Below, one piece after another: positions 5,719 to 30,185 of a DNA stretch of 41,751 nucleotides; positions within the stretch are counted from its first letter, which is position 1; every line of letters begins with the position of its first letter. Origin of the DNA: a virus; IMG/VR virus record IMGVR_UViG_3300031963_000335, positions 1 through 41,751 of that record. One strand, written 5' to 3'. A program made the translations under genes and the position numbers. The notes beneath the pieces are model-generated. The model was not told the origin of the DNA. It made no database searches and was given only the letters and a program-made list of their open reading frames with translations.

Positions 5719-5974
5719 GAAAGCCGAGATGGCGTGCAACACCCCCAAGCGCACGCCGGGGCACCCCACCAAAAGTCACGTCGTAAAGGCGTGCTGGGAT
5801 GGTAAGGAGAAGGTGATCCGCTTCGGCCAGCAGGGCGTTAGCGGGTCTCCGAAGAAAGAGGGCGAGTCCGACGCTGAGCGCAAACGCCGTGAGTCTTTCA
5901 AGGCACGCCATGCCAAGAACATCGCCAAGGGCAAAGAATCTCCAGCATTTTGGGCGAACAAGGTGAAGTGGTGA
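5708..5974 (+). CDS. Small basic phage protein, conserved C-terminal motif
   Basis: The 88-residue protein starts at a GTG inside the end of the previous gene. Its C-terminal half has the pattern SGSPKKEGESDAERKRRESF, then KARHAKNIAKG and FWANKVKW. This is a common signature of small conserved phage proteins of unknown function, possibly DUF6321-like. It is strongly basic. Its stop overlaps the GTG chosen for the glycosyltransferase. Confidence 0.7.
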   Translation: MALKKAEMACNTPKRTPGHPTKSHVVKACWDGKEKVIRFGQQGVSGSPKKEGESDAERKRRESFKARHAKNIAKGKESPAFWANKVKW

Positions 5975-7040: not shown

Positions 7041-7994
7041 ATGGCAACCAGCGGCACGTATTCATTCGGGGTTACGAAGTACGACATCGTACGTCAAGCC
7101 ATGCTGAATATCGGCAAGCTGGACCCTGCCGAGCAGCCCACAGCCAATGAGATGCAGGACTGCACATTCATGCTGAACATGATGTGCAAGCAGTGGATGG
7201 GGAAAACTGACTTCGCCCCCGGCCTCAAGGTATGGACGCGCAAGCGCGGGCACCTGCTACTCAGCAACACCACGGGCGTCTACATCATTGGCCCCACCGC
7301 GCAGGGCTGGACTAATGACCTAACCACTACTGCCACGACTGCTGCTGCCCTAGCTGCTGCTACGGCAGTTGTGGTGGACAGTGTGGTGGGGATCACTACG
7401 GCGAACACGGTTGCCGTGTACTTGGACAGTGGAGCCCTGCATTACTCTGGCGTTAGCAGTGTGGTGGGCAGCACGGTTAACCTGACGGCTGCGTTGCCCA
7501 GCAGCGCAGCGAGTGGGAACACGGTGTTTGCCTACTCTGTAGCTGCTCAGAACCCCAAGGATATTGAGACTGCCGTGCTGCGGGACGTCAATAACACGGA
7601 CAGTCCCCTGGGCATTATGACCGTGCAGGATTACGACTATCTGCCCAACAAGGCGGACCCACTGTACGCTGGCGACCCAAGCGGCATCTACTTTGAGCGT
7701 GGTCTAGGCACGAGCCGCGTCTATACAGACGTTGGCAGTGCCATCGACACGCGCAGCCATATCGTCATCACGTACCAGGAGCCCATCCAGGACATGACAG
7801 TGAACGCCGACGCCCCGTACTACCCGCAGGAGTGGTATCTGGCGCTGTGCTGGGGGCTTACGGAGCAGATTGCCCCCATGTTCAAGGCTAACTGGACCCC
7901 AAAGATGGAGTCGCTTAAGAACACTGCACTGACTATTGCTCGGCAAGGTGACGCAGAGCAGAGCACGCTGTACTTCCAGCCTGGGGAAGAGTAA
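7041..7994 (+). CDS. P22 gp4-like head-to-tail adaptor / DNA stabilisation protein
   Basis: The 317-residue protein opens with a helical region containing KYDIVRQAMLNIGKLDPAE, then MLNMMCKQW, typical of P22 gp4-like tail accessory factors. A Thr/Ala/Val-rich beta insert (about 88-170) follows, then a C-terminal helical part (YPQEWYLALCWGLTEQIAP). Such proteins form the ring under the portal that begins tail assembly and keeps DNA in the head. The following gp10-like gene, joined by TAATG, repeats the P22 order 4-10-26 and strengthens the call. Confidence 0.75.
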   Translation: MATSGTYSFGVTKYDIVRQAMLNIGKLDPAEQPTANEMQDCTFMLNMMCKQWMGKTDFAPGLKVWTRKRGHLLLSNTTGVYIIGPTAQGWTNDLTTTATTAAALAAATAVVVDSVVGITTANTVAVYLDSGALHYSGVSSVVGSTVNLTAALPSSAASGNTVFAYSVAAQNPKDIETAVLRDVNNTDSPLGIMTVQDYDYLPNKADPLYAGDPSGIYFERGLGTSRVYTDVGSAIDTRSHIVITYQEPIQDMTVNADAPYYPQEWYLALCWGLTEQIAPMFKANWTPKMESLKNTALTIARQGDAEQSTLYFQPGEE

Positions 7995-10291: not shown

Positions 10292-12406
10292 ATGGCCAGC
10301 TTGACTCCCACCCCCAAAATCCAGTTTTTTGACGCTAACGGCAACCCCCTGGTCGGCGGCAAGCTGTACACGTACTCAGCAGGTGCGCTCACCCCCCAGA
10401 CCACGTATGTTGATCAGGCACAGACCGCTGCCAACACCAACCCCGTAATTCTTGACAGCCGTGGGGAAGCCAACGTGTGGCTCCCTGCTGCGAGCTACAA
10501 GTTCAGGCTTACGGACTCTAACGACTCTGAGATTTGGACCGTAGACAACGTGGTGACCGACGAAGCGGCTGTGTCCTCAGCACTTTCTCAGCCAGGGGGA
10601 TCTTCGCTCGTAGGCTTCATTCAGGCTGGCACCGGCGCAGTCACACGCACGGCGCAGAGCAAAATGCGAGAGGTGGTGAGCGTGCTAGATTTTGGCGCGG
10701 TGGGCGATGGGGTGGCCGATGACACGGCGGCGATTCAGGCGGCGTTTGCGGCATCAAGCGGCAAAAGAGTGGTTTTCCCAACGGGGTCTTACCTCGTGAA
10801 CGCTGCCGTCACTACTGCGTCCAGTGACATTGAAATTGATTTTGGAACATCCAGAATTCTGAACACGGTCGCGCTGCCTATTGTTGTGATATACGGCGAA
10901 GACTCAAACGCAATCTTCAACTTCACCGGCAATCGGGTACGGGTCAGCGGAGGATATTTTCTCAATGGCTTGAGTGAGGGCATCCGTATTACTGGTGTCT
11001 TTGCTGGTGGAGACACCTACACAGGAGCGGGCTACACAAAAGACCATTTCGTCAATGGCTGCTTGTTCGACAACTGGGACGGCAACAGTGTCCAGATTCG
11101 ATTTTTCAAAGGCGCAACGATTTCCAATGTGCGCGTAAAAAACAAAGGATCAGGTGACGCAACATCGCATCACTCGGAAGTTGCTTTCAAATACGGAACG
11201 GATGCCAAGTGGTTGGGTAATTCTGTCGAGTTTTCTGATTATGGTGGCGCAATCTACGGGTTGTATGTCGGAAATTTTGTTGTCGAAGGGAATTACGGGT
11301 ATACGACAAATTCACTAGCTCCGCAAAGCAACCTTCCATTTTACTTCTCGTTTTGCGAAAACGGCATCATAAATGGGAATATCGGATACGCCATTGATGG
11401 CGGCTTGGCGCTTAAAGGTAGTCATGGCGCTCGCCTTAGCGTTTCCAATAACCGGTTTGAGAATACTGGCGCTGGCACTGACCCTTACGCCTGCATTTTC
11501 ATGCAAGGCGTTGACGGCTTCAGCATCATCGGCAACCACTGCAAGGGCTACGCGCAGCATGTGATTCGCTGTTCAAACCACCCTTCTGCGCCAGCGTCAA
11601 ACTCCAGGAACGGCCTGATTGCCGACAACGACATCATTGCGCTGTTGAATGGAACCAGTCGCACGGTGGGCGATGGCATCTACTGCGCGCAGGACACGGC
11701 GCTGACACGAGGCGGCATTGTCATTACCGGGAATCGTTTGGTCGATGGCTCAATCTACGTTGACCGCTTTGGTGGCGTAGATGTTCCGCAGTCTCGCGTG
11801 ACTGGTAACACATTGACCTTCACGGATGACCCCAACACATCTGGCGCGTGCATCTGGACTACCACCTGTTATGGGCTCAACGTGTCTGACAACTGGGTAC
11901 ACGTTGATGATGTGACCGTTGAAGCGAAAGTCGGTATCCGAAATACAGGCGGCACATATGTGTCTTTGGCGAACAACTATGTGTCTTTTGTTGGAAACGG
12001 TGTTGCGGGATCTGTCTCGTACTTGCAGGACGGTTCGCCTACCGCAAACACTGTCTATTGGGAAAATAACCGCCAGATGCGAGCTGAAACTCCGTTTTCT
12101 GGCCCAACTGTTTCAAGGACCGAGCGTGTTTCTGCGGATTATGGAAACGCCGACGCCATACTTTATGTTGGCGATCCCATAACCTCCATCTGGAACACTG
12201 CATTGACTGGAAATCGATCTGCTGGACTAGACACAACTGGTGCGTACAACGGTGCAAAATTTCGCATCGTTCGCACCGCCGCTGCGACTGGCGCGTTTAA
12301 TTTGAACGTCGGGACCGGCCCGTTGAAGGCGCTTGCAGCAGGTCAATGGTGCGATGTTGAGTACAACGGTTCTAGCTGGATATTGTCTGCCTTTGGTTCA
12401 CTATGA
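10292..12406 (+). CDS. Tailspike with head-binding and pectate-lyase-type beta-helix domains
   Basis: The 704-residue protein has three visible parts. Residues 1-90 form a head-binding domain with PKIQFFDANGNPLVGGKLYT and later VWLPAASYKFRL, as in many short-tailed phage spikes. Residues 126-165 hold the pectate-lyase-3 opening VVSVLDFGAVGDGVADD, then FPTGSYLV. The region to about 600 shows repeated beta-helix rungs (ISNVRVKN, GLIADNDI, ITGNRLVDG). A short C-terminal domain ends SWILSAFGSL. Tailspikes bind and often cleave the host O-antigen or capsule. The helix region is AT-richer than its neighbours, consistent with exchange of the receptor-binding part. Confidence 0.85.
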   Translation: MASLTPTPKIQFFDANGNPLVGGKLYTYSAGALTPQTTYVDQAQTAANTNPVILDSRGEANVWLPAASYKFRLTDSNDSEIWTVDNVVTDEAAVSSALSQPGGSSLVGFIQAGTGAVTRTAQSKMREVVSVLDFGAVGDGVADDTAAIQAAFAASSGKRVVFPTGSYLVNAAVTTASSDIEIDFGTSRILNTVALPIVVIYGEDSNAIFNFTGNRVRVSGGYFLNGLSEGIRITGVFAGGDTYTGAGYTKDHFVNGCLFDNWDGNSVQIRFFKGATISNVRVKNKGSGDATSHHSEVAFKYGTDAKWLGNSVEFSDYGGAIYGLYVGNFVVEGNYGYTTNSLAPQSNLPFYFSFCENGIINGNIGYAIDGGLALKGSHGARLSVSNNRFENTGAGTDPYACIFMQGVDGFSIIGNHCKGYAQHVIRCSNHPSAPASNSRNGLIADNDIIALLNGTSRTVGDGIYCAQDTALTRGGIVITGNRLVDGSIYVDRFGGVDVPQSRVTGNTLTFTDDPNTSGACIWTTTCYGLNVSDNWVHVDDVTVEAKVGIRNTGGTYVSLANNYVSFVGNGVAGSVSYLQDGSPTANTVYWENNRQMRAETPFSGPTVSRTERVSADYGNADAILYVGDPITSIWNTALTGNRSAGLDTTGAYNGAKFRIVRTAAATGAFNLNVGTGPLKALAAGQWCDVEYNGSSWILSAFGSL

Positions 12407-12663
12407 CCCCCCGCCCAGCGCCACACATCGTTAGGTGGTTTCTCCGCACCTTCGGGTACGGAGGCATCACGCTGCCGCCGCTGGGCATCTTCATCCTGGC
12501 CGAGCGCATCAACGAAGCGCCGCTCATCAGGCATGAGCAGTGCCACTGGCAGCAGGCCCAGCGGATGGGGGTGGTGCGGTGGTATGTGACATACCTGTGG
12601 GGCCTGCTGCGGCACGGCTACCGGAACAACCCGCTCGAAATCGAAGCTAGGAGAGCAGAATGA
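12403..12663 (+). CDS. Mini HExxH (zincin-like) protein
   Basis: The ATG overlaps the tailspike stop. The 86-residue product contains RHEQCHWQQAQRMG at about residues 43-56, an exact HExxH motif in a helix. A hydrophobic VVRWYVTYLWGLLRHG and then NPLEIEARRAE follow, where a Glu could be the third zinc ligand. It also has an N-terminal hydrophobic segment (GGITLPPLGIFIL). The short form resembles small phage zincin-like proteins of unknown role. It may be a peptidase or just a zinc-binding protein. Confidence 0.6.
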   Translation: MTPRPAPHIVRWFLRTFGYGGITLPPLGIFILAERINEAPLIRHEQCHWQQAQRMGVVRWYVTYLWGLLRHGYRNNPLEIEARRAE

Positions 12664-16322: not shown

Positions 16323-18076
16323 TGGCTACGGATACCGAAGCTGGCTGGGAGAATGTTGAGGGCGCAAAGGTTGACGGCTGGGAGACCGTACGCCCCGCTA
16401 TGCGTCAACCCAGCATCTACGCTCCGCGTGAGGAGTGGGCCAAGTACCGCGCTGCTCAGCAGGCGGGCGCGGCTGCGCCAGCGCCCACGGGGCAGCTCCG
16501 TCCGCAAGTGGCACCTCTACCAAGCACTATGGAGGTGACCAAGGGCGTAGCGCAGATGCTGGCAGGCGCATTGCTGGAAACTCCGGCCACTATGGTCACT
16601 GGTGCTGTAGCCACCCCCGTTGCTGGAATTGCTGGCCTTGCCCGCACGGGGTACGACATTGCCACCGGCAAGCCGCTGGAACAAGCCCTGGAGCGCGGCG
16701 CTGCGGCTGTTGAGAGCGTACAGGGTGCGATGACCTACCAGCCCCGCACGCAGGCGGGGCAAGCATTCACCGCTATGGCGTCAGCTCCTTTTGTGGCTGC
16801 TTCCAAGGGGGCGGAGGCCGTGGGTGGTGCAGTGGGGCAGGCTGTAGGGGGTGAGCAGGGTCGCATTGCGGGTGAAGCTATCGGTGGCACCGTGCCCGAG
16901 GCTGGGTTGGCGCTGGCCGGTGGTGCGCAGGCGCTCCGCGCTCGTCCCGGACGCCCCACGGGGCCCATGCAGTTCACGCAGGAGCAAGACGCCATTAAGG
17001 CTGCGCAGCAAGCGGGCTTCCGCGCCCTGCCCAGCGAGGCACGCGGTGGGGCCACCAACATCGCAGTTGAGTCAGTGGCCAAGCAAGCTCCGCTAGTCAA
17101 GCGGTTGGTCCAGTACAATGAGGAGCGTGCCAGCCAGCTCGTACGGCAGGACCTTGGCTTGTCCCCCACCGGCAGACTGGATGAGGGAGCGCTCAGTAAC
17201 ATCCGCAATCAAGCCGGTGCGGTGTACGATCAACTACGAGCCCTGCCAGACGTTATCAACGTCCGGGCAACTGACCCCGCATGGCTCACCAAGGTGCAGG
17301 ACTTGGACTCTCGGTTCCGTAGTATCAAGCAAGCGATGCCCGCCCTGTACAAGGACGGTGGTCTTGAGCGCCTGCGTGGCTCCATGGGGAAGGTTAATAC
17401 ACTCACCCCTGAGCAGATTGTTGACATTACCAAGAACTTGCGGGACACCGCTACGCGCACCCTCAAGCGCAGCGACGCTCCCAGCGAGAGTATTGACGCG
17501 GCCTACGCCTTTAAGGAAGCTGCCAGCATGCTTGAGGACTTGTTGGAGTCCCACCTTGCGCAGACCAACCGGCAGGGGGCGCTGGAGCGGTTCCGCAACG
17601 CACGCCAGCTCTACGCCAAGACCTACGCCGTTGAGGACGCTACCAACCTCACCACCGGCAAGGTTGACCCGCAAGCTCTGCGGCGTGCGTTGGAGCGGGG
17701 TGAGCCGCTGACTGGTAACATGCGCCGGGTGGCCGAGGCCGCTGCTGCTATGCCCAGCGTAGTCCGCCGCAGTGAGGGGCTCACTACCCCGGAGGGCATG
17801 GTGCTCAGCGACTGGGCAATGGGCGCAGGTATTCCAGCGGCAATATTCAGTGGTCAGCCCGGTATTGCTGTGGGGCTTGCTGCCGGTGCTGCCGCCCGCC
17901 CAGCAGTACGCAGCATGGCCGCTGGTGAGCGCTACCAGCGCCTAATGGCGCAGCCTAGGGGGGTAGTACCCCGCGCCCCTGCCGGGGCCGCTGTACCGGG
18001 CATGGTGAGCATGGGCGTGGCCGCGCAACCCAGCAGGGAGCGTGCCCCGTTTTTGATGAGTGAGGAGACGGAATGA
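16322..18076 (+). CDS. Internal virion / ejection protein with hydrophobic Ala/Gly segments
   Basis: The ATG overlaps the previous stop (TAATG). The 584-residue product has a hydrophobic Ala/Gly/Val-rich stretch (about 78-200, with MLAGALLETPATMVTGAVAT and VGGAVGQAVGGEQ) that could insert in membranes, as expected for a protein forming an ejection channel. The middle is helical and charged (KAAQQAGFRALPSEARGGAT), and the C-terminus has a second Gly/Ala hydrophobic segment (GIPAAIFSGQPGIAVGLAAG). It is the third large ejection-type protein, analogous by position to P22 gp16. Confidence 0.55.
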   Translation: MATDTEAGWENVEGAKVDGWETVRPAMRQPSIYAPREEWAKYRAAQQAGAAAPAPTGQLRPQVAPLPSTMEVTKGVAQMLAGALLETPATMVTGAVATPVAGIAGLARTGYDIATGKPLEQALERGAAAVESVQGAMTYQPRTQAGQAFTAMASAPFVAASKGAEAVGGAVGQAVGGEQGRIAGEAIGGTVPEAGLALAGGAQALRARPGRPTGPMQFTQEQDAIKAAQQAGFRALPSEARGGATNIAVESVAKQAPLVKRLVQYNEERASQLVRQDLGLSPTGRLDEGALSNIRNQAGAVYDQLRALPDVINVRATDPAWLTKVQDLDSRFRSIKQAMPALYKDGGLERLRGSMGKVNTLTPEQIVDITKNLRDTATRTLKRSDAPSESIDAAYAFKEAASMLEDLLESHLAQTNRQGALERFRNARQLYAKTYAVEDATNLTTGKVDPQALRRALERGEPLTGNMRRVAEAAAAMPSVVRRSEGLTTPEGMVLSDWAMGAGIPAAIFSGQPGIAVGLAAGAAARPAVRSMAAGERYQRLMAQPRGVVPRAPAGAAVPGMVSMGVAAQPSRERAPFLMSEETE

Positions 18077-19242
18077 ACCTGCTACTGCTGGACGATAAGG
18101 GCAAAGCCCTGAGCCTTGCGCTACGGGCCAGTCAAGCAGGGCACACGATCAAGTGGTACGTGCCGGACACCGAGGTGGGCAACGGCTTCCGTGGTTTTGA
18201 GCGCGTGGATAACTGGGTGGCCCACGCCGCCTGGGCTGACCTAATTTTCAACTGCGGATGCGAGAAGTTTGAGGCCAAGCTGCGGCAGTTGATGCAGCGC
18301 AGCTTCCCCATCTGGAATACGCCCTGCACGCTCAAGTTTGAGGACTACGCCGCGCTGGCCCCGGCCACTGAGCAGTTTTCCAGCGTTGATGCGCTCGTCA
18401 AGCACCTGTACTCCAAGCCTGCCCGCTACGTGTTGAAGGGCGAGGACGTTGACACGTTTGAGTCCTACTCTGCCGCTGACATGCTGGCCCATGTGCGCAG
18501 CCTGCCCACTCCAGAGGGAGACTTGCTGCTGCAAGATTACGTGGAGGGCTTGCAAGCCACGGTGACCCGCCACATGGGCCGCGACGGCTGGGTTGGCCCC
18601 GTGCTGGAGGGGTTGACTCACACGGGCATCAGCCGCTGGGTGGAGGCATCCACTCTATTTGATGACACTCTCGGTACGATGACTGACCTACTGCTCCAGC
18701 GTGGACTGCGTGGCACGGCTACGGTCAAGTGCTGCATCACCCCGCAGGGGGACGCAGTAGTGTTCAAAGCCAAGTGCCGCTGGGCGATGGAGAGTACCGC
18801 ACAACCCACCAGCGACCCCGTGCAGTGGGCGCTGGACGCACTCTCCTCCAAAGATACCGCCACCTACCGCACTGAGGACATGGCTTTCTACCTCAAGCTA
18901 GAGAGCGAGGAGCCTGGAGCGCCTGTTTACGGCATAACGCGGGGCGTGGCCGTGCATGCGCAGCCAATAATGGTCCAGTTACGGCGTATGCCAGACATGA
19001 ACGCGGATGGCACCGCCATTGTTGAGCGTGATTTGTGGGTTACCGCTGGGGAGTACCCTTTTGCTGTGAGCGGCTACGGCATGTCCGCCAAGCAGGCCAT
19101 GCGCCGCGCCATGTCCACAGTTGACAAGGTGCATGTTGCAGAGACTGAGCCTGACATTGAAGATGAGTACTTTGCTGGGCTGAGCAGCAAGCTGAGCGCT
19201 GCACAGTCAGCCGGGTACCTGACTGCACTCAAGTACGAGTAA
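18073..19242 (+). CDS. ATP-grasp, PurD-like protein
   Basis: The 389-residue protein starts at an ATG overlapping the previous stop. It begins MNLLLLDDKGKALSLALRAS, the start of a PurD-like N-domain, and has ATP-grasp-type blocks (VLKGEDVDTFESYS, DLLLQDYVEGLQATVT, ATVKCCITPQGDAVVFKAK). The C-terminal block SGYGMSAKQAMRRAMSTVDKV resembles PurD's last domain. PurD joins glycine to phosphoribosylamine; ATP-grasp relatives ligate other amino or carboxyl groups. The sequence is divergent, so the substrate is open. A purine or ligase gene within virion genes is odd. Confidence 0.6.
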   Translation: MNLLLLDDKGKALSLALRASQAGHTIKWYVPDTEVGNGFRGFERVDNWVAHAAWADLIFNCGCEKFEAKLRQLMQRSFPIWNTPCTLKFEDYAALAPATEQFSSVDALVKHLYSKPARYVLKGEDVDTFESYSAADMLAHVRSLPTPEGDLLLQDYVEGLQATVTRHMGRDGWVGPVLEGLTHTGISRWVEASTLFDDTLGTMTDLLLQRGLRGTATVKCCITPQGDAVVFKAKCRWAMESTAQPTSDPVQWALDALSSKDTATYRTEDMAFYLKLESEEPGAPVYGITRGVAVHAQPIMVQLRRMPDMNADGTAIVERDLWVTAGEYPFAVSGYGMSAKQAMRRAMSTVDKVHVAETEPDIEDEYFAGLSSKLSAAQSAGYLTALKYE

Positions 19243-19250
19243 CCGCTGCC

Positions 19251-22200
19251 ATGGACCAACAACTAGACCCGGGCTACGAAACTGGTGAAGTACCCCGTCG
19301 TCCAGACTCTCCGTTGGACGCCCCGTGGCGTCCAAGTTACATGCAGCCAGCGGCTCCAGTGCCGCAGCCCGTGGTCCGTGCGCAACCTACGCAGCAGCCC
19401 CGTCCGGCTGAAATGCGTGAGTACCGCCCCACCACTCGGGAGAGGGACGTTGCCAAGGCGCAGTCCGCACTAGAGGGGTTGGGCATGGAGCGTGCAGGGG
19501 CACGCCGCACCGCGCAGACTGTGCTGGGTGGACCACAGAGCAACCTGCCACTCGGCATTGGCTTGGCAGATATTCCCCTACTGCCCGCACTACCTTACTT
19601 TATGGAAGAGGGTTACCGCAGCACTGAGCGTGCTGCCGGAGCGCTTGAGCGGGGGCAGTACGGTACTGCGGCGCTGGAGTACCTGGGTGCCGTGGGGCAG
19701 ATGTTGCCTGGGGGCTTTGCCGCCCGTGAGGTAGCCCCTGGCGTATCCAAGGTGTTGAAGAGCGCTGGCGTTTCCATGCTCGACTCTCTGGGCGCTAACG
19801 CCGTAACTAGCCCGATGGCTAGGAGCCAGCGCGGAGTGTTTCTGCCTGAGACATTCTTCACTCCGCAGGAGAAGGCCAAGGTTTCCGCAGCACAAGAGCT
19901 TGAAGCCAAGGGCGCCTCACCCGATGAGGTGCTGGTGCAGACTGGCTTGCTCAGAGACCTTGATGGTAGCTGGGCTGTAGAACTTAGCGATGACAAGATG
20001 AAGTTCAAGGCCCTGCAAGCTGTGCAGGCTGCGCGAGCGCCCGTGGTGCAGCGCATCTCAGACATTGAGTCTGCGCTACAAGTGCGTGAGATATTGGAGC
20101 GTGGCGGCAGCATGGGCAATGCGGCACGTACCATCCGCGTGCAGACGGGACAGGACCCATCCCCCAAGGCGCTGGACCTTGCGCAGAAAAAGACTGTCGA
20201 GCAACTTGACGCCGCGCTGGAGAATGCCAACAATAGCTTGATGGCCCCCATCCGTGGGCTGAAGATGAAGGATGTTGTCGAGCACCCCGAGCTGTTTGAC
20301 CGCATCCCCGAACTGGCTGAGATGCAGGTGGATTTTCTCACTAAGTCTGAGCTCGGCGGCGCTGGCGGCCACATGGACGCCCCTGCGAATGCTATCCGCC
20401 TACAGACGCAATACATGCGCCCGGGCGAGGATTACGGGCGCAGCATCATGGCTCATGAGCTCCAGCACAGTATAGACTACCGTGCCGATAGGGACTATGG
20501 CATTTCTACCGATACAATAAAGGACGCGGGCGAGTATTGGAAAACCCGGCTTGAGGGAGATAAGGTAAACTTTGATGCTGATGCCACAGCACTCCAAGCC
20601 CGTAAGTTGATGGACAATAGTCCAGGCATGACGCCCGAGCAGGCTCTTGATGAGGTGGTTGATAGGGCTAATTATTACGGAACAGCTGAAAACTTTGGAG
20701 CTGCTGGGAGGTACAACCCCGAAAATGAAAGCACATTTGCGGAAGACGGAATACTGCGGGACGTTACGCTTAGGATAGTTAGGAATGTGCCGCTAGACTC
20801 TCTTAAGCAACGTGTAGACGCATCACAGGCTCGTATTAGGGAGTCGTACCAAAAGTCTAGAATCGCCGAACCCACCGAAACTGGCCGTTACGAGCAGTAC
20901 CTCAGCAACGTGGGCGAGACCCGTGCCCGCCTTACGCAAACGCGTTTGGACCTCACCCCGGAGGAGCGGTTGCAGATGTTCCCCATGCGGGAGCAGTTCA
21001 TGGGGTTGGACAGGCCCCCTGAGTCGCTTAAGACCGTTGAGGAGTTGACGGGCGGGCGGTACGGCAGGTCTGCTACCCCAGCCATCAGCGCCAGCATGGA
21101 GCCCCCTGCGCAGATGACGTTGCGTGAGGCCCTAGCCGACCAACCCACCACCCTGCGCACGCTGGAGAACTTGCCCGGTAAGTGGGCGATGATCCCCATG
21201 CAGGAGATACGCGACCAGCTCCGCCGCCCCGAGGTTACAAAAGCCGAGCGTGACGTGTTCGAGCGCGTGCTTGCCCGTACTGAGGGCGACAGCATCTCCG
21301 CTGAGAATCTCGTGCGCGAGGTGGGGCTGGAAACCAAAGATTTCCGCCTTACGCCCAAGGATACTGACAGTTTTGCCGATTACGGACTGCAAAGCATTGG
21401 TAGAGATGCTACGCCAGCGGACTGGACTGGGGGCATGAGTCAGCCCAACGCACAGAACGTACGTACCACTATTCACCGCAGCCCCACACCTACAGCAACG
21501 AACAATCACTTCGGTGACCCCAACTACTTCGGCCACACCAGGGCGTTTGAGGATGAAACAGGCATCCCCCATGTGGTGGAGCTACAGTCTGACCTCGTGC
21601 AGAAAGCTGGCAAGGAGCTAGCGCCTGAGGAACGCGCACGGTTGGAGAGCGCCTTCGACAGTGTAGTGGCGCAGGAAGTTGTAATAAATCCGATACTTTC
21701 GAAAAGTGGCGGAGGCAATAGTATCGAATGGGCGAGCTCTGCGGCAAATGACATTTTGCAAAATCAAGACAAGTTGCTACAAGCCAATCCAGATTTCTTA
21801 ATGCTGCTGGAGGACGACATTGCCAGCAAACTAACACCGGAGGCGTTGAACGAAGTTGGCTCTCGCGCTATTCTTGACAATGAAGGCGACTTGCTTCGGT
21901 ACATTGCAACGACACAGACTAGACCTGGGGCTGGACTACTGAATATCCATCTCGGCAGATTGCGTTTGGCGCTGGAGGAGTCGCTAAAGGATATCAGCAA
22001 CCGACTAAGTCTTTTAGGCAGCGAGCACAGCGCTAAGTTGGCGGAAGGTGGCGCAGCCACCGCGCAGCGCCCCATGTTCAAGAATTGGGAGCGCCGCTTG
22101 ATCCGCGAGGAGCTGAGCCGTGCCGCCACGCCGCAGCTTAACCCTGAGTACGAAAGTCTGCGCAACCGAGCAAAGTCTGCGCTCAAGTACGTAAAGCAGG

Positions 22201-22868
22201 TAGAGGACTCCTACGTCGAGCAAGGGTTCAACCGCACCGATAGAATGATAGCTGCCGTTACCGCCCCACATAGGAAGGACGCTGAGGAATTTGCACGGCG
22301 GGCTCTTGAGGTTGAGCAGTACAAGCCTATACCACCCGTGGTCCGTTTTGCAGACGCTGACACCGTTGCCGCCGTAGAGGGGTGGGAGCGTAAGCTAGAC
22401 ATTACCCCTGGCCAAGCCATGGATCCCGCTCTTGCCGGTACGCGTCTTCCAGGTAACAGAGCAGGCACCGCCAACGACTGGAAGTATACCGGCAACGTCC
22501 GTGTAGACGACACCGGCATGTGGGAAGCCGAACGCCTGCCCATTGATGTCAATGGTAGACAAATTGGTCCCCCCATCTGGAGTCACTCGGGTACTTCCAA
22601 CATTAGCGAGGGTGTGATCAGCCGCTTTGTTAAGCCAAGCGACAAGTTCGAGTACCCCGAGCACCAAGGTATCTACGATCGGTACAAGAAAGAGGTTACT
22701 AACTACCTCAAGTCGCTCGGAGGCAGGCAGGTTAAGGACGACAAGGGCCATAGTTGGTGGGAAGTACCCGTTGACCCCAAAAAGTCCAAACGCACTCAAC
22801 TATTCAGTATGGGTGGGGCGGTTGCGGCGGGCGGCGCTGCCACGTACAATTCGGACGAAGAACAGTGA
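19251..22868 (+). CDS. Giant polyvalent-type ejection protein with HExxH zincin-like motif
   Basis: The 1205-residue protein has a Pro-rich N-terminus (1-60), a hydrophobic segment (about 95-120) and a block with FFTPQEKAKVSAAQELEAKG and TGLLRDLDGSWAVELSDDK (residues 201-250). A metallopeptidase-like region follows: EHPELFDRIPELAEMQV (344-360), then HELQH at 402-406. The C-terminal half includes GHTRAFEDET, VVELQSDLVQ (about 765-790) and a final block IYDRYKKEVTNYLKSLGGRQ then WWEVPV. These blocks recur in large polyvalent proteins of phages, which are ejected into the host with the DNA. The protease role is inferred from the motif alone. Confidence 0.65.
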   Translation: MDQQLDPGYETGEVPRRPDSPLDAPWRPSYMQPAAPVPQPVVRAQPTQQPRPAEMREYRPTTRERDVAKAQSALEGLGMERAGARRTAQTVLGGPQSNLPLGIGLADIPLLPALPYFMEEGYRSTERAAGALERGQYGTAALEYLGAVGQMLPGGFAAREVAPGVSKVLKSAGVSMLDSLGANAVTSPMARSQRGVFLPETFFTPQEKAKVSAAQELEAKGASPDEVLVQTGLLRDLDGSWAVELSDDKMKFKALQAVQAARAPVVQRISDIESALQVREILERGGSMGNAARTIRVQTGQDPSPKALDLAQKKTVEQLDAALENANNSLMAPIRGLKMKDVVEHPELFDRIPELAEMQVDFLTKSELGGAGGHMDAPANAIRLQTQYMRPGEDYGRSIMAHELQHSIDYRADRDYGISTDTIKDAGEYWKTRLEGDKVNFDADATALQARKLMDNSPGMTPEQALDEVVDRANYYGTAENFGAAGRYNPENESTFAEDGILRDVTLRIVRNVPLDSLKQRVDASQARIRESYQKSRIAEPTETGRYEQYLSNVGETRARLTQTRLDLTPEERLQMFPMREQFMGLDRPPESLKTVEELTGGRYGRSATPAISASMEPPAQMTLREALADQPTTLRTLENLPGKWAMIPMQEIRDQLRRPEVTKAERDVFERVLARTEGDSISAENLVREVGLETKDFRLTPKDTDSFADYGLQSIGRDATPADWTGGMSQPNAQNVRTTIHRSPTPTATNNHFGDPNYFGHTRAFEDETGIPHVVELQSDLVQKAGKELAPEERARLESAFDSVVAQEVVINPILSKSGGGNSIEWASSAANDILQNQDKLLQANPDFLMLLEDDIASKLTPEALNEVGSRAILDNEGDLLRYIATTQTRPGAGLLNIHLGRLRLALEESLKDISNRLSLLGSEHSAKLAEGGAATAQRPMFKNWERRLIREELSRAATPQLNPEYESLRNRAKSALKYVKQVEDSYVEQGFNRTDRMIAAVTAPHRKDAEEFARRALEVEQYKPIPPVVRFADADTVAAVEGWERKLDITPGQAMDPALAGTRLPGNRAGTANDWKYTGNVRVDDTGMWEAERLPIDVNGRQIGPPIWSHSGTSNISEGVISRFVKPSDKFEYPEHQGIYDRYKKEVTNYLKSLGGRQVKDDKGHSWWEVPVDPKKSKRTQLFSMGGAVAAGGAATYNSDEEQ

Positions 22869-24021: not shown

Positions 24022-24537
24022 TCAGACGCCCCCGGGCTGCGTTTTTACAGGTGGGGTGGGGCTAGGGTAGCGGGGGCGGTACCACGCAGCCCAGGACGCG
24101 TCCTTTGGCACCCGGATGCAAGTGCCCACACAGGGCACCATATCGCTCTCCTTGTCTCCAAACATTAGGCTTTGGGACAAGTCAATGTCAAAGTCTCGGG
24201 CGGCACGCTCAAATAGCTCAGTGCCGGGTTTGCGGCAGGCGCAGCCAGCGTCCGGCGTGTGGGGGCAGTAGTACGTAGCGGTGATGTACACCCCATGCTG
24301 CGCCAGTAAGTCTAGCATCCGCCGCTGAACGGCCACGTACTGCGGCTTAGTGATGCGCCAGCGTCCTATCCCACTCTGGTTGGTAACCACAATCAACAGG
24401 TAGCCGCACTCAATCAAGTTACGCAAAGCTCTAACGACCCCAGGCAGTAGCTCGACTTGCGTGGGGTCGTTGATGTAGGGGACGTCCTTTATCAGGGTTC
24501 CGTCCCTGTCAAGAAACGCTGCTCGGTACTCCGGCAC
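24022..24537 (-). CDS. gmhB: D-glycero-D-manno-heptose 1,7-bisphosphate phosphatase
   Basis: The 171-residue HAD-superfamily protein starts at a GTG inside the end of the previous gene. It shows DxD in FLDRDGT (D10 and D12), motif II TNQSG (52-56), the GmhB zinc loop with Cys91, His93, Cys99 and Cys101 (YYCPHTPDAGCACRKP), Lys103, and motif IV GDKESD (127-132). In the pathway it removes the C7 phosphate of heptose 1,7-bisphosphate, leaving the 1-phosphate. The zinc loop separates it from the related histidinol phosphatase, though that activity remains possible. It is the last gene of a four-gene operon. Confidence 0.85.
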   Translation of the reverse strand: MPEYRAAFLDRDGTLIKDVPYINDPTQVELLPGVVRALRNLIECGYLLIVVTNQSGIGRWRITKPQYVAVQRRMLDLLAQHGVYITATYYCPHTPDAGCACRKPGTELFERAARDFDIDLSQSLMFGDKESDMVPCVGTCIRVPKDASWAAWYRPRYPSPTPPVKTQPGGV

Positions 24538-24937
24538 GGATACGCTGCTCGATTAGTGTGGTGCTAATGCCGGGTAGACGTGGCAGCGCGGTGATTGCCA
24601 CCCCCCGCTCCAGCATCCACTGACCTTCCGCTGAGTGTACGATGTCGCATTCGCTGTCCTTGACGTACATGTCGGGCACGGTGCCTAGTGTAGCCCAAAG
24701 TTCAACGGGGGTGGGGCCATCAAACACATGCACGTGAGTGACGCAGCGGAGTGCCTCTAGCATCTTGCGGCGGTACACCAGGGGAGTGATGGGGCGATGC
24801 ACCCCCTTCAATGCTGAGATGCTTGCATCACTGTTGAGAAACACTGTCAGCGTTCCCAAGGAGGCCGCGTGCTGCAAGAAGGTAACGTGCCCCGCGTGCA
24901 GCAGGTCAAAGCAGCCGTTAGTCCAAACTCTCTTCAT
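24509..24937 (-). CDS. hldC: Heptose-1-phosphate adenylyltransferase
   Basis: I choose the ATG preceded by GGGGGA, giving 142 residues; an upstream in-frame start lies further into the preceding gene. The protein matches the C-terminal nucleotidyltransferase domain of HldE: TNGCFDLLHAGHV with the HxGH motif (14-17), FLNSDASISALKG, RPITPLVYRRKMLEAL and ISTTLIEQRIR (124-134). This domain makes ADP-heptose from ATP and heptose 1-phosphate. In many bacteria it is fused to the kinase; here it is separate. It overlaps the isomerase gene by 20 bases. Confidence 0.85.
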   Translation of the reverse strand: MKRVWTNGCFDLLHAGHVTFLQHAASLGTLTVFLNSDASISALKGVHRPITPLVYRRKMLEALRCVTHVHVFDGPTPVELWATLGTVPDMYVKDSECDIVHSAEGQWMLERGVAITALPRLPGISTTLIEQRIRAGVPSSVS

Positions 24938-25487
24938 CAAGTCCCCCATCAATCAACTCGCATAGAATGTGCGCAGCAACAATGTGCGCTTCCTGCACGC
25001 GGGCGGTAACCTCGCTGTCAATGTGCAGGGTGGCGGCGGCTACGCGGCTGAGCATGCTCTTGTTTCTACCAGTCATCGCCAGTGTGGGCACGCCGAGCTC
25101 GGTGGCGGCGCGGGCTGCTTCCACCACGTTGGCGCTGTTGCCACTGGTGCTGATACACATAAGCACGTCCCCCGGCCGAGCCAGCGCCCGTACCTGACGG
25201 CTAAACACATGCTCAAAACCATAGTCGTTGCCCACGGCAGTGAGTATTGAGGTGTCAGTTGTCAGCGCTACGGCGCGGAACCCCAGCCGTGGCCGCTGGA
25301 AGCGCCCCACCAGCTCAGCCGCTAGGTGCTGACAGTCCGCCGCGCTGCCCCCATTACCGCAGAGGTAGATGGTGCCCCCACGGTTGATGCAGCCAGCAAG
25401 CATGTGCGCCATGCTCTTAAGCAGCGTCCACTGCGCCCGCAGGCTTTCTACAGCGGCGCTATGCTCGGATAGTGTTCTTTCAAGCAC
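24918..25487 (-). CDS. gmhA: Sedoheptulose-7-phosphate isomerase
   Basis: The 189-residue product is a SIS-domain protein of the GmhA type. CGNGGSAADCQHLAAELVGR (43-62) carries the substrate loop and a candidate catalytic Glu58. TSGNSAN (114-120) is the phosphate-binding serine loop, and His168 in QEAHIVAAHILCELI fits the second catalytic residue. GmhA converts sedoheptulose 7-phosphate to D-glycero-D-manno-heptose 7-phosphate, the first pathway step. Length and motifs match the bacterial enzyme (about 190). The start lies inside the kinase gene's end (40-base overlap), suggesting coupled translation. Confidence 0.88.
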   Translation of the reverse strand: MLERTLSEHSAAVESLRAQWTLLKSMAHMLAGCINRGGTIYLCGNGGSAADCQHLAAELVGRFQRPRLGFRAVALTTDTSILTAVGNDYGFEHVFSRQVRALARPGDVLMCISTSGNSANVVEAARAATELGVPTLAMTGRNKSMLSRVAAATLHIDSEVTARVQEAHIVAAHILCELIDGGLDEESLD

Positions 25488-26344
25488 TCGTTAATCTCCG
25501 TTGAAGTGATTACTGCTGTCCCCACGTGGGTGGTTGCCAGGGCTCCGGCAATGCTGCCCAATCTGCACGCGGCTTGTAGGGTGCGTCCGGCGGCAAGGCC
25601 CACCGTCATAGCGGCGAGGTAACTGTCCCCCGCCCCGGTGGGGTCCACAGCAGCCACCTTGTGCGCAGGGTAGAGCTTGCCGAACTCATCGCCCACGTAG
25701 TTGATTTCATACCCGGCGGCCCCCGCAGTGCGGACAATGGCTCGGTTGTTCAGCCACTTGGCAAGCTCTGCTGGAGATTGCTGTAGCGCAGCACACTCGG
25801 CCGCGTTGGCCTTGATGTACGTGGCGTTCTCATACCTAGCCCAGTTATCCCCCTTGGGGTCCACCAGCGTCAGCTTGCCGGTGCAGTAGTCTAGCATATT
25901 GGCTACGTGACGCAGAGCGCCCTTGCCGTAGTCGCTAAACACTACAACATCAGCGTGCTTGATCTGATCAATAAACAGGGCTAGCATATCCTCACTCTCA
26001 TCTTCATCGAGGATATAGTCATCGTCCATGCGGGCACGCATCACTCCAGCAGTGAACACGCGGGTCTTTACCGTGTTGGCCGTGGTGACTTTGGTCACCA
26101 CACTGCCAATTCCACTGGCGTATAGCGTGTCAAGCTCGGTGCGCTCTGCCTTTGCGGTGAGCAGCGTAACCTCACCGCCCATAGCGGCAATGTTCAACGC
26201 CACGTTGGCAGCGCCCCCAGCGTAGTGGATGCGCTGGTCAATGTCGTAGATGGGCAGCGGAGCCTCGGGGCAGAGGCGGGACACTTCGCAGTCCAGCCTC
26301 ACGTCCTCCATGGAGTCACCCACCACTAGAATCTTTTTTCTCAT
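25448..26344 (-). CDS. hldA: D-glycero-beta-D-manno-heptose-7-phosphate kinase
   Basis: The ATG follows AGGAGG. The 298-residue product is a PfkB-family kinase with the HldE N-domain pattern: VVGDSMEDVRL, SRLCPEAPLP, YAGGAANVALNIAAMGG (41-57) and the catalytic DPTGAGDSYLAAM (234-246). The Asp of GAGD is the expected base. It phosphorylates C1 of heptose 7-phosphate. The adenylyltransferase half of HldE is absent and is supplied by a separate gene two places on, as in the HldA/HldC arrangement. It is the first enzyme gene of the operon. Confidence 0.87.
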   Translation of the reverse strand: MRKKILVVGDSMEDVRLDCEVSRLCPEAPLPIYDIDQRIHYAGGAANVALNIAAMGGEVTLLTAKAERTELDTLYASGIGSVVTKVTTANTVKTRVFTAGVMRARMDDDYILDEDESEDMLALFIDQIKHADVVVFSDYGKGALRHVANMLDYCTGKLTLVDPKGDNWARYENATYIKANAAECAALQQSPAELAKWLNNRAIVRTAGAAGYEINYVGDEFGKLYPAHKVAAVDPTGAGDSYLAAMTVGLAAGRTLQAACRLGSIAGALATTHVGTAVITSTEINECLKEHYPSIAPL

Positions 26345-26802: not shown

Positions 26803-27272
26803 TCCTGCCCAACGTAGCGGGGAGTGGCGCAGCTACCGTGCATCTGCGTAGCAGCATCTGCGTCTGGGGCGCGTACCATTTCCCCACAATGGCGGCAGCG
26901 GTAGTGCTGGGTGAGGTCACCAAAGTAGCCCTCCACCTGCCAGTCAGCATTGCTAAGTAGCTGGGCAAGCGCAGCATCAGCCCTTGGGGTAACGGCGGGC
27001 TGCGGCACGGGCGGCGCTGCGGGCGCTGCGGCGGAGGGGTCGTACTCTGCCACGACCTCAATGTACTTTTGCAGAAAGTGCGCGGCTTTCTGCAAGTCCT
27101 TCAACCGCTCGGCAGGGGTGCTGTGCTTGTACTTCCAGCGCATCACGTACTTGGTGATTTGGTACTGGAATGGGTCCCACTTAAAGTGGACAGCCAAGTC
27201 CCAGTGCTGGAGTGCTGCGCCTGTTTGGCGGTAATGGTCGCCACCTACCTGCACTTCATTAGCGTTGCTCAT
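26799..27272 (-). CDS. DUF3310 protein with C-terminal zinc ribbon
   Basis: The ATG follows GAGGAAC. Residues 9-72 carry the DUF3310 (PF11753) pattern: VGGDHYR, QHWDLAVHFKWDPFQYQITK, YVMRWKYKH and LKDLQKAAHFLQKYIE. I recall a link between this family and T7 gene 1.7, a nucleotide kinase, which would fit a gene beside thymidylate synthase. A Pro/Ala linker leads to a second part with CRHCG (126-130) and HGSC (145-148), a possible zinc ribbon. The combination is uncommon in my experience. The stop falls within regulatory site A. Confidence 0.75.
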   Translation of the reverse strand: MSNANEVQVGGDHYRQTGAALQHWDLAVHFKWDPFQYQITKYVMRWKYKHSTPAERLKDLQKAAHFLQKYIEVVAEYDPSAAAPAAPPVPQPAVTPRADAALAQLLSNADWQVEGYFGDLTQHYRCRHCGEMVRAPDADAATQMHGSCATPRYVGQD

Positions 27273-28240
27273 TTGGTTCCTCTTCTATTGCACCAGTCAC
27301 AAAATGCCAGCGTCCAGTCACACTCAGGCAACTCACGCCAGTTGATTGCTTCCCCCTCCCTGCGGGCGAGGTAAGCGTCACGCAGGGGTAGGGCAACCCG
27401 CTGCATAAACTCAGTTTTCATTGTGCTGTAGCTACTCACCAAATTCTCGCAGTCGAGCAAGAAGTCTTGGTAACGCTCGCCGGGTTGCAGCAGGGGCAGA
27501 GCTACGGTACTTTCACGGTAATAGTCATGCTCCTCAAACGGGGGCATGTCTAGAAACTGCTGCACCATCGGATTACCCGTGTAGGCGTGCCAGTTGTTGC
27601 TGAACTGCCTGTACACCCCCAGCGGCAGATCCGCGCCATGTGCCACCACCTCCTGCAACACGCTGAAGTGTACGGCGTTGGCTCCGTAGCAGCCCCAGAG
27701 AATGTCATTGCTACGGCAGGTAACCGTCATGTTCAAGCGGCCCCCGCGTCCATCAAAGTACACGGCGGTGTTGCAGGGGCGGTCCCGCCAGTCGCCCTCG
27801 AGGTCACTGCCGGGATCCCACATTTGGAGTACGGCTTGCCGGGTGGTGGGGTCGCGTCGCAGCATTTCAATAATCACGTGTAGCTGGTCGTACTCGCCGT
27901 CAACAAACCAGTTACGCCAGCGGGCCCCGTACGCGCCGTGAATGTGTCCGTCAGGCTCCGCATAGGTGGCGATGTTGCTGCTGAACTGCTTGAGCCACTG
28001 TACGTCGCTCTCACCAGCGAGCATCCACAGGGCCTCCATCAAATGGAATACGGCGTTGGCATCCCGCTGGGGGTTGAACAATACCCGCTGCTGGGGGTGC
28101 AGATAGGTAGTCACTACCGGACCGGGAGCCACCAGCACGGGGCCGTTACGGCTGTTCTCCTTTACGCCGGACACCCGCAGGTAGTGCCAAGCGTCAGCAA
28201 ACGCGGTGTTCACGTTTCTGGCAGTTATGGTGTGAATCAT
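27269..28240 (-). CDS. Thymidylate synthase homologue (dUMP methylase or hydroxymethylase)
   Basis: The 323-residue protein has the thymidylate synthase fold signatures: GAYGARWR (103-109), DRPCNTAVYF with the nucleophilic Cys156, the phosphate-binding R177-S178 in CRSNDILWGCYGANAVHF, and Asn188. Asn188 sits where Asn selects dUMP over dCMP. The C-terminal NNWHAYTGN matches the His/Tyr ribose-binding pair. Phage members make dTMP or 5-hydroxymethyl-dUMP; sequence alone does not separate them. Next to a MazG-like gene and modification genes, the hydroxymethylase role is attractive. Its start overlaps the MazG-like stop. Confidence 0.85.
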   Translation of the reverse strand: MIHTITARNVNTAFADAWHYLRVSGVKENSRNGPVLVAPGPVVTTYLHPQQRVLFNPQRDANAVFHLMEALWMLAGESDVQWLKQFSSNIATYAEPDGHIHGAYGARWRNWFVDGEYDQLHVIIEMLRRDPTTRQAVLQMWDPGSDLEGDWRDRPCNTAVYFDGRGGRLNMTVTCRSNDILWGCYGANAVHFSVLQEVVAHGADLPLGVYRQFSNNWHAYTGNPMVQQFLDMPPFEEHDYYRESTVALPLLQPGERYQDFLLDCENLVSSYSTMKTEFMQRVALPLRDAYLARREGEAINWRELPECDWTLAFCDWCNRRGTK

Positions 28241-28629
28241 CTCTCTGCGCCTTCCATGGCAAGCAGTTGTTGAATCATGCTCTCGGGACGCCAGTAGTTA
28301 GGTCCCTTTTCCACCTTGCCGGTGGCGTTGTTGATGATAGGCTTGCCGTCCTCCCCCAGCTTGGACATATTGCTGGCCATGATAATGTTGAGCACCTTCT
28401 CGATTGGGATGCCGTGGCGTATAGCCTCACTGGCGCAGTAGACGATGATGTCCCCCACCCAGTCAGCAAAGTCTTCAAGCTCTCGTACGGTGTCGTACTC
28501 ATTAACCTCGGCCAGCAGCATGTCTCTAAACTGGCGTAGGCGTAGACTGTTGGGCATTACCGGCACCGCAGGCTCCGGCATACCGAACACGCGGTTAAAC
28601 TCTTGCACTCTTTGGAAGAACTGGGACAT
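28237..28629 (-). CDS. MazG/PRA-PH-type nucleotide pyrophosphohydrolase
   Basis: I place the start at an ATG preceded by AGGAAC, giving 130 residues. A longer in-frame start lies in the upstream gene. The helical core has the MazG-type acidic pattern: LLAEVNEYDT (Glu41, Glu44) and LEDFADWVGDIIVY (Asp56, Asp60). The C-terminal ASNMSKLGEDGKP and KGPNYWRPE are typical of phage members. The family hydrolyses nucleoside triphosphates to monophosphates. In a modification operon it could remove the unmodified dTTP or dUTP. It overlaps the pyrophosphorylase-like gene by 35 bases. Confidence 0.8.
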   Translation of the reverse strand: MSQFFQRVQEFNRVFGMPEPAVPVMPNSLRLRQFRDMLLAEVNEYDTVRELEDFADWVGDIIVYCASEAIRHGIPIEKVLNIIMASNMSKLGEDGKPIINNATGKVEKGPNYWRPESMIQQLLAMEGAER

Positions 28630-29422
28630 ACTTGTTCCTAACGTGTCCGTTGAGATATGTGACGTTGCACCACTTGCTGAATTCACACAAGCAGTTTTGA
28701 AAGTCCTGGTTGCTGATGCGGGGCACCTCCGGGTTGATGAGTGGGTCAGTTGCCTCGCGGCACGTAGCAAGGTCTGTGTGGTAGCGGCTGGCGCTTGTAT
28801 TCAGGTGGTTGTGGTGGAAAAACCAGCTCAGCCCCCGCAGGCTCCCCGGTCCGGGGGCTGACCATGTCCACCAGTCCGCTGCGTCGTGCAGGGGGTGGCC
28901 GTGCGTGTTTTTCATGTCCGCAACTACCTGCGCAGAGAGGAAGCTACCTAGCCCATCAATGTTAGAGAGCCATGTGTACGCATCCTCCAGTGTGGAGTGG
29001 GTGCCTGCCCACTGTGCCTGCGCAACGCGGGCGGCTACGTGGTCAAATACGTAGTCCAACTTGTCCATTTTGCGTCCACACGTGCTGACCGTGTAGGCGC
29101 TGGTAAACACCTTGGCGTGGGTGTAGCGGCGGTCCTTAAGCCGGTCTCGCATCCGCGCTGGGGTCTCGCAGTTGAGAATGTCCTCCAAGCTATCAGGCCA
29201 GTTGATGAGCCGCGCCACCACAAAGCGCCACGCGGGATCGGTGCCACGGTTCCAGTACCTGCGCACCCAGCGGGTTACCTTGTCGTCCTCCCTATGCACG
29301 TTGCAGAAGCGCACGGTGCGGAACACCTTGTCCTCACTCCAGGGTGGGGGCACGCCCTGCTCCCGCTGCTGGCGGATGCGCCAGCGCTCGTTTATCCAGT
29401 AGGCAAGCTCAGTCTGTAGCAT
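28595..29422 (-). CDS. Alpha-glutamyl/putrescinyl-thymine pyrophosphorylase-like protein
   Basis: The 275-residue product matches the aGPT-PPlase families named by Iyer, Aravind and colleagues, as I recall them: an N-terminal YWINERWRIRQQREQGVPPP and RFCNVHREDDKVTRW (38-52). A helix-hairpin-helix follows, LSNIDGLGSFLSAQVVADM (152-170), then DWWTWSAPGPGSLRG (183-197). Family members are related to DNA glycosylases. They are proposed to replace the pyrophosphate on hydroxymethyl-uracil in DNA with an amine, as in phages with putrescinyl- or glutamyl-thymine. No matching P-loop base kinase is visible in the window. It overlaps the glycosyltransferase gene by 14 bases. Confidence 0.7.
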   Translation of the reverse strand: MLQTELAYWINERWRIRQQREQGVPPPWSEDKVFRTVRFCNVHREDDKVTRWVRRYWNRGTDPAWRFVVARLINWPDSLEDILNCETPARMRDRLKDRRYTHAKVFTSAYTVSTCGRKMDKLDYVFDHVAARVAQAQWAGTHSTLEDAYTWLSNIDGLGSFLSAQVVADMKNTHGHPLHDAADWWTWSAPGPGSLRGLSWFFHHNHLNTSASRYHTDLATCREATDPLINPEVPRISNQDFQNCLCEFSKWCNVTYLNGHVRNKYVPVLPKSARV

Positions 29423-30185
29423 GGTTGCGGGCCTTTTTCCATTGGATGGTCACGTCAGTACGAGTGCCGCCGCCCCACGCAGTCTTGGTTTCTTTCTCCA
29501 CAACCTTGACGTAGGGGGTGTGCAGCGCGGCTAGCAGGCGGGCAGCGTCAGTCTGTAAAGTGGGGGTACGGTACGTTGAGCAGCCCCCGGCAGCGTCACT
29601 CCCCTCGGCTTGGTTGTTGCACCAATTGTTCAGCACCAGGGTGTCCCGCCCCAGCTTGAGTAGTTGCAGGCTAACGTGGAAGTCCTCCATCACCGGCATG
29701 GGGGCAAACGTCACCTTGTGGGTGCGCAAAAACTCACGGTCATACCCCAGCACGCGCATGATGCGTGTGTTGAGCATGAATGGCTCCGTGTTGCGGTTAC
29801 CACCCTCTCTGGGGGCAATGCCCACGTGCGGAAAACGGTCCAGCATACCCTCAAGCTGCGCCAGCATGCGGCCGAGCTCAAACGGCACCAGAGGACGGAA
29901 CTTGGTGGGGTCATCATTACGACGGGCAAAGAAGTGTAGGTCATCATCCAGCATGCAGACAAAGCGACTCTTCCACACCTCGTTATGAATGAGGTAGTCC
30001 CGCGTGGGGGCTACGGTCTGTATCTCTGGCGGTAGTACATGCACCGGGCCATGATACCAGTTGTAGAGCTGATGTTCGCGGTGCTGCACAATCAGTACAG
30101 GCAGCAACCCGTCCGCCACCAGGGCGTTCAGGGTATGCTGCCTGCTCTGCTGTGGACGACCGTAGGTTGGAATTACGATGTCCAT
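29409..30185 (-). CDS. GT-A glycosyltransferase, TET-associated (TAGT)-like
   Basis: The 258-residue protein begins MDIVIPTYGRPQQSRQHTLN, the opening of a GT-A enzyme. It has a DDD metal motif in FVCMLDDDLHFF (80-82) and a later acidic/helical block PMPVMEDFHVSLQLLKLG (162-179) that may hold the catalytic base. This layout resembles TET/J-base-associated glycosyltransferases of phages, which add sugar to hydroxymethyl-pyrimidines in DNA. No TET/JBP oxygenase is visible. The thymidylate synthase homologue could supply the hydroxymethyl group instead. It could also be an ordinary GT2 enzyme. Confidence 0.6.
   Translation of the reverse strand: MDIVIPTYGRPQQSRQHTLNALVADGLLPVLIVQHREHQLYNWYHGPVHVLPPEIQTVAPTRDYLIHNEVWKSRFVCMLDDDLHFFARRNDDPTKFRPLVPFELGRMLAQLEGMLDRFPHVGIAPREGGNRNTEPFMLNTRIMRVLGYDREFLRTHKVTFAPMPVMEDFHVSLQLLKLGRDTLVLNNWCNNQAEGSDAAGGCSTYRTPTLQTDAARLLAALHTPYVKVVEKETKTAWGGGTRTDVTIQWKKARNHATD

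Follow-up and report, generated by a model that had tools for sequence, protein, structure and literature searches.

Why would a phage carry genes for making an activated heptose, and which of its enzymes would use the sugar? These questions are raised by a viral sequence of 41,751 nucleotides from IMG/VR (positions 1 to 41,751 of IMGVR_UViG_3300031963_000335; we call this whole stretch the window). At 24022-26344, four overlapping genes very probably encode the enzymes that would supply the sugar nucleotide ADP-heptose. Among the virion genes of the window is a glycosyltransferase of the heptosyltransferase family GT9 (5968-7035). We tentatively propose that ADP-heptose from the operon is used by this GT9 protein, most likely on a virion protein, although we hold the whole chain with slightly more doubt than belief.

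A four-gene operon predicted to make ADP-heptose

On the minus strand, the order of the genes is kinase, isomerase, adenylyltransferase, and phosphatase, and each gene overlaps the next. With their family matches and nearest solved structures, they are:

25448-26344, minus strand: HldA-type kinase (PfkB/HldA; TIGR02198, 7e-52; PF00294, 3e-26; HldA structure 4e84, 6e-31)
24918-25487, minus strand: GmhA-like sedoheptulose 7-phosphate isomerase (SIS; NF010546, 5e-59; TIGR00441, 8e-54; 5i01, 3e-51)
24509-24937, minus strand: HldC-like heptose 1-phosphate adenylyltransferase (TIGR02199, 9e-31; 5x9q, 3e-17)
24022-24537, minus strand: GmhB-like heptose 1,7-bisphosphate 7-phosphatase with a zinc loop (NF006506, 5e-40; 3l8e, 8e-24)

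(For HldC, we preferred the ATG at 24937, which follows GGGGGA, over the listed TTG at 24952.)

We then examined the functional motifs. The kinase has a PfkB fold with the catalytic GAGD motif, and DPTGAGDS aligns to 4e84. The isomerase has CGNGGSAAD, TDTS, STSGNS, and QExHI, and in alignments to 5i01 and 1tk9, its SIS domain keeps the substrate-binding and catalytic residues. In the adenylyltransferase, the HxGH and STT motifs are present as HAGH and ISTT, and these are found in all five orthologues, except that L040 has ISTS. (Labels of this kind, L followed by a number, denote the loci we compared.) The phosphatase has the HAD motifs DRDGT, CRKP, and GDKESD, and its alignment to 3l8e includes the zinc loop C-x-H...C-x-C (CPHTPDAGCAC).

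There is no HldD-like epimerase among the large open reading frames (ORFs) of the window, which supports the D-glycero form, ADP-D,D-heptose, as the predicted end product. The arginine in the (F/L)XXGRSTT motif of heptose nucleotidyltransferases has been tied to promiscuity for the nucleoside triphosphate (NTP) (PMC11573728). The window's HldC has RLPGISTT and lacks this arginine (the Arg of the motif STTR5); this is compatible with an ADP product.

The original prediction had described four overlapping genes here (without giving their strand) and a complete route to ADP-heptose, with intact key motifs, a kinase and an adenylyltransferase that are split instead of fused as in HldE, and no HldD. 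Our results agree: all of the ORFs are present, the kinase and adenylyltransferase are separate genes, and, judging from sequence, the family matches, structural homologues, and conserved motifs bear out the four assignments.

Could the substrate of the four enzymes have shifted to another sugar, so that a related nucleotide sugar is made instead of ADP-heptose? All four proteins fall below NCBI's curated equivalog cut-offs: HldA scores 176.5 bits against TIGR02198 (cut-off 345), GmhA scores 182 against TIGR00441 (cut-off 209) and 199 against NF010546 (cut-off 276), HldC scores 106.7 against TIGR02199 (cut-off 181.5), and GmhB scores 137 against NF006506 (cut-off 178). So, these are divergent members of their families. 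In the same direction, SIS-type isomerases are known to act on other sugars as well, as the arabinose system of RB69 shows (PMC6024577). Also, HldC has VKDSEC where 5x9q has VKGGDY. However, the best match for each protein across NCBIfam and Pfam is a heptose-pathway family, the HldC of L040 retains IKGGDL, and a full set that includes the 7-phosphatase is typical of heptose pathways. We consider a change of sugar to be very improbable.

Conservation of the operon

The four-gene order recurs in IMG/VR relatives of the window (L005/L006, L007, L090, and L040), which gives five distinct phages including the window. Across these relatives, identity to the window's proteins is 36-57% for HldA, 53-64% for GmhA, 41-74% for HldC, and 46-88% for GmhB. 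The heptose genes are under purifying selection, with ratios of nonsynonymous to synonymous rates (dN/dS) of 0.07-0.34, which are approximate because dS is saturated in distant pairs. The recurring order and these low ratios imply that the operon is real and selected, and not due to chance. Furthermore, a 50.7-kb record that is near-identical to the window (G001) has the same layout, with the operon and GT9 on one contig.

In INPHARED, we found no relatives of the operon's DNA, and the matches to GmhA were remote, with some of them in bacterial records. We also asked whether relatives that lack the operon have other sugar-nucleotide genes at that site; what we saw there, by eye, was mostly ORFs resembling ATP-dependent DNA ligases, plus unknowns. 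(In L017, L030, L034, L035, and L048, which have no heptose genes, the ligase-like ORF is near the operon's place, downstream of the hydroxymethylase described below.)

A GT9 protein in the virion module

The candidate user of ADP-heptose lies among genes for the virion:

2551-3522, plus strand: major capsid protein, upstream of GT9 (phrog_1357, 2e-18); candidate acceptor
4834-5355, plus strand: methyltransferase (PF08241), partner of GT9
5968-7035, plus strand: GT9 heptosyltransferase-family glycosyltransferase; candidate ADP-heptose user
7041-9520, plus strand: neck genes downstream of GT9, with a phrog_12985 protein (7041-7994; our control for distribution) and head closure Hc3 (7994-9520)
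10292-12406, plus strand: tailspike with a pectate-lyase-like beta-helix (PF12708 and several tail-spike phrogs); possible alternative acceptor

The window's copy of GT9 has no Pfam match of its own; 29 of its 42 homologues match PF01075 (Glyco_transf_9). An AlphaFold (AF2) model built from 42 sequences (pLDDT 90.3, pTM 0.88) replaced a poor first model from six sequences (pLDDT 53.5). In Foldseek, the model matches the GT9 structure 3tov (2e-14), WaaF from E. coli (1psw, 1e-12), TibC (4rap/4rb4, from 5e-8), and WaaC (1e-7), and the matches to 3tov, 1psw, and 2h1h give it a GT-B fold. WaaF, TibC, and WaaC, which are among its best fold matches, have been characterised with ADP-heptose, which we count in favor of GT9 as the user. 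TibC is a protein heptosyltransferase whose donor is ADP-D,D-heptose, and it contains a four-cysteine iron finger (PMC4358343). As this donor is the product expected without HldD, we count it in favor of GT9 as well.

We then examined the conserved residues of GT9. G30-D31, K184, and E252-T253-G254 are invariant in the homologues, and they suggest ADP-heptose as the donor. These residues would correspond to the donor and base sites of GT9 enzymes (compare Asp13, Lys192, and Asp261 of WaaC). Near the C terminus are four cysteines (C295, C306, C316, and C327), of which three are invariant and one is conserved at 90% or more, but their spacing is unlike that in TibC (339/342/358/370). The GT9 domain begins near residue 19 of 355, so the N-terminal beta-barrel of TibC (about 97 residues) is absent. 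Among the genes tested, GT9 shows the strongest constraint (dN/dS 0.05-0.09). INPHARED contains no relatives of it that we could find.

In a survey of 76 IMG/VR loci around GT9, the major capsid protein is upstream in 41 of the 42 loci with enough sequence. The methyltransferase is immediately upstream of GT9 in 54 of 67 loci and is often fused to it (as in L171, L172, and many other relatives), and a homologue of 7041-7994 is downstream in 44 of 60. This position between the capsid and neck genes, across a wide group of phages, counts for a virion acceptor. (L209 additionally has a TylF-type O-methyltransferase. L171:1026-1610 resembled an FkbM methyltransferase by eye; it has no Pfam match, and we did not use it.)

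The GT9 module, with the capsid and methyltransferase genes, also occurs in bacterial genome contigs as apparent prophages. Four of the strains are named, all of them Pseudomonadota: Paraburkholderia sp. C35, P. rhynchosiae WSM 3937, Pseudothauera rhizosphaerae CC-YHH848, and Aromatoleum anaerobium LuFRes1. This suggests that the hosts are Burkholderiales- or Rhodocyclales-like. The prophages, in Gram-negative bacteria, would also suit a role directed at the host: the phage might raise or restore the host's pool of ADP-heptose, or GT9 might alter the core of the lipopolysaccharide (LPS), for envelope integrity or to block re-adsorption. WaaF and WaaC, which are among the best structural matches, do act on LPS. 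But Gram-negative hosts usually produce their own ADP-heptose, and the constant location between the capsid and neck genes would be odd for an LPS-conversion gene. We consider a host-directed role to be improbable.

Two other late genes of the window, both on the plus strand, deserve mention. One (18073-19242) encodes a 389-amino-acid protein that is kept in relatives and, by eye, is of the ATP-grasp type (PurD-like), with no Pfam match. The other (19251-22868) encodes a 1205-amino-acid protein with an LPD23 large-polyvalent-protein domain, which is possibly ejected with the DNA.

A DNA-hypermodification cassette upstream of the operon

The heptose operon forms the end of a replication operon. 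Upstream of it, on the same strand, is a cassette for DNA modification:

29409-30185, minus strand: TAGT (TET-associated) DNA glycosyltransferase (PF20691, 2e-19; phrog_842); rival candidate for using the heptose
28595-29422, minus strand: 5-hydroxymethyl-dU (5-hmdU) DNA kinase helical-domain protein, HMUDK_hel (PF18723, 7e-31), a homologue of phage M6 ORF055 with no P-loop seen; hereafter HMUDK
28237-28629, minus strand: MazG-like pyrophosphohydrolase (phrog_671, 2e-21; start corrected from relative L007)
27269-28240, minus strand: dUMP-type pyrimidine hydroxymethylase of the thymidylate synthase family (phrog_5131, 8e-93)

The hydroxymethylase is 39-40% identical to annotated phage dUMP hydroxymethylases (deoxyuridylate hydroxymethyltransferases). 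It has a thymidylate synthase fold, with an asparagine at the position of N177 in the E. coli enzyme, where the CMP hydroxymethylase 5b6d has an aspartate. (The residue at this position has been used as a rule for dUMP-type hydroxymethylases; PMC8670742.) Together, the identity and the asparagine indicate that the phage probably makes DNA with 5-hmdU.

The acidic motif of TAGT (D80-D82) is invariant in 29 homologues; comparing the TAGT profile to the PDB gave nothing usable. In a scan of 80 TAGT loci, most have HMUDK and the hydroxymethylase. Dozens of IMG/VR phages (loci L003-L085) have these three genes, for the most part with their order kept, which looks like a widespread system for glycosylated 5-hmdU. 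Many of these relatives have a DNA polymerase, a helicase, and a T4 endonuclease V-like gene upstream of the cassette, and HMUDK occurs in the cassette loci without any amino-acid:DNA transferase that we saw. In L045, a radical SAM/SPASM protein (11615-12598, plus strand) is encoded between HMUDK and the hydroxymethylase and could perform a further step of base modification.

Given this cassette, TAGT would seem to be the obvious user of the heptose. If so, 5-hmdU would replace dT, and TAGT (perhaps after HMUDK) would add heptose from ADP-heptose, as a defense against restriction. In all of the heptose phages, the operon comes directly after the genes for TAGT, HMUDK, MazG, and the hydroxymethylase, on the same strand. 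In Mosigvirus, a cluster for an isomerase, an epimerase, a kinase, and an NTP-transferase accompanies a DNA arabinosyltransferase (PMC13390438), and a UDP-xylose pyrophosphorylase encoded by Thanatos serves the modification of cytosine (PMC12838424). Both are known or proposed cases of phage-made sugar nucleotides for DNA.

Nevertheless, TAGT does not track the operon, and we demoted it. First, most contigs with TAGT have HMUDK and the hydroxymethylase without the operon, and a whole-length search found GmhA in just 6 of 65 TAGT-bearing records. Second, the heptose phages form one clade in the HMUDK tree, but they fall into two groups in the TAGT tree, and the window's TAGT is closest to TAGTs from phages without heptose genes. 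This implies that TAGT was swapped while the heptose genes were retained. The TAGTs of L090 (4205-5017) and L040 (5945-6736) are 66% identical to each other and 42-44% identical to the window's. The genes that flank these two are much closer to the window's than TAGT itself is, which implies gene exchange at TAGT. Third, the DDD motif of TAGT is typical of GT-A enzymes, and we know of no TAGT protein that uses ADP-heptose and no heptosylated DNA. Overall, heptosylation of DNA by TAGT seems rather unlikely. We favor a heptosylated virion protein over phage DNA in which 5-hmdU bears D-glycero-D-manno-heptose from the phage's ADP-heptose, which we regard as unlikely.

Which enzyme uses the heptose?

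We then asked whether GT9 and the heptose genes occur together. All six contigs with heptose genes have GT9 (68-100% identity). Among the records searched, every contig with heptose genes has both the GT9 module and the cassette (6 of the 8 contigs with both), and heptose genes are absent from all 58 TAGT records without GT9 and from all 32 further GT9 contigs; many of the contigs behind these counts are fragments. We had considered the presence of GT9 in 6/6 heptose contigs, versus 1/18 others, as independent linkage. We dropped this argument because the result for the control gene at 7041-7994 is identical. Because of this control, the co-occurrence reflects shared ancestry of the structural module, not repeated linkage; combined with the single HMUDK clade, it implies that the heptose operon was gained once.

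Several observations weigh against GT9 as the user. Besides the control gene, which is distributed exactly as GT9 is, many contigs have GT9 without heptose genes, and GmhA is absent from L019 and L191 even though GT9 is present there along with the cassette or the hydroxymethylase. The heptose genes adjoin the DNA-modification genes, in the replication operon, away from GT9. And the virion acceptor is a guess from gene position. We still favor GT9 because TAGT has been exchanged, because TAGT often occurs without the operon, and because it is GT9, and not TAGT, that the characterised ADP-heptose transferases match.

We propose that the four enzymes would produce ADP-heptose and that GT9 would take up this sugar nucleotide. 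Acting alongside its partner methyltransferase, beside the capsid and neck genes, GT9 would most likely modify a virion protein with heptose, which may itself be methylated; the capsid protein and the beta-helix tailspike are candidates. Most relatives with GT9 would draw on the host's ADP-heptose. In the lineage of the window, a single gain at the end of the replication operon would have made the phage its own supplier. The original prediction was right about the enzymes and the end product, but it listed DNA, virion, and LPS as options without choosing, and it overlooked the cassette and GT9.

One genome joins a complete operon for ADP-D,D-heptose with two candidate users, the GT9 of the virion module and a DNA glycosyltransferase. 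If our proposal is true, heptose may decorate the virions of phages across a widespread group, one lineage of which produces the donor itself. Mass spectrometry of virions and nucleosides could now test what role these enzymes play in viruses, and the apparent prophages with GT9 relatives, in four named strains, offer cultured material.

Comparison with known systems

The bacterial ADP-heptose pathway (GmhA, HldA/HldE, GmhB, and HldC) has the same four families and the same sequence of reactions. The phage set differs in its separate kinase and adenylyltransferase, its lack of HldD, its overlapping genes, and its members' scores below the equivalog cut-offs.

Such genes in a virus are not unprecedented. 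Virus-encoded enzymes for nucleoside diphosphate (NDP)-heptose biosynthesis were reported by Tang et al., as summarised in PMC11573728, and this 2024 overview describes their role in viruses as unsolved. In contrast to those reports, here one operon holds the complete set, the phage also has a GT9 and a cassette for DNA modification, and HldC lacks the STTR5 arginine. Also, the cyanophages P-SSM2 (L267, 8604-10060) and S-CAM1 (L268, 6622-8033) have partial sets, with adjacent genes for an adenylyltransferase, a kinase, and an isomerase, near tail-fibre genes. These differ from the window's in that the isomerase is half-length (about 108-115 amino acids), no GmhB is annotated nearby, and identity is 25-30%. 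With tail-fibre genes close by, a virion-related role for the sugar would fit here too.

In mycobacteriophage Che8, glycans are reported on the major capsid protein, and the phage has putative glycosyltransferases of its own (Freeman 2023, as cited in PMC11256854). Che8 belongs to another group of phages and hosts. To our knowledge, no phage-made nucleotide sugar is known in that case.

Mosigvirus (RB69 and NP), with its arabinosyl-DNA, similarly combines a phage sugar isomerase, kinase, and NTP-transferase with a DNA glycosyltransferase, but there arabinose is attached to 5-hydroxycytosine, while here we find heptose enzymes and a dUMP-type hydroxymethylase. Finally, GT9 resembles TibC and the family of bacterial autotransporter heptosyltransferases (BAHT) in its GT-B fold and its four C-terminal cysteines, and their donor, ADP-D,D-heptose, would match the operon's product. 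We do not class GT9 as a BAHT because the barrel is absent and the cysteine spacing differs; its partner is also different, a methyltransferase. The components are known, but as far as we found, their combination, with the full set of heptose genes and a GT9 of the virion module in one phage, is new.

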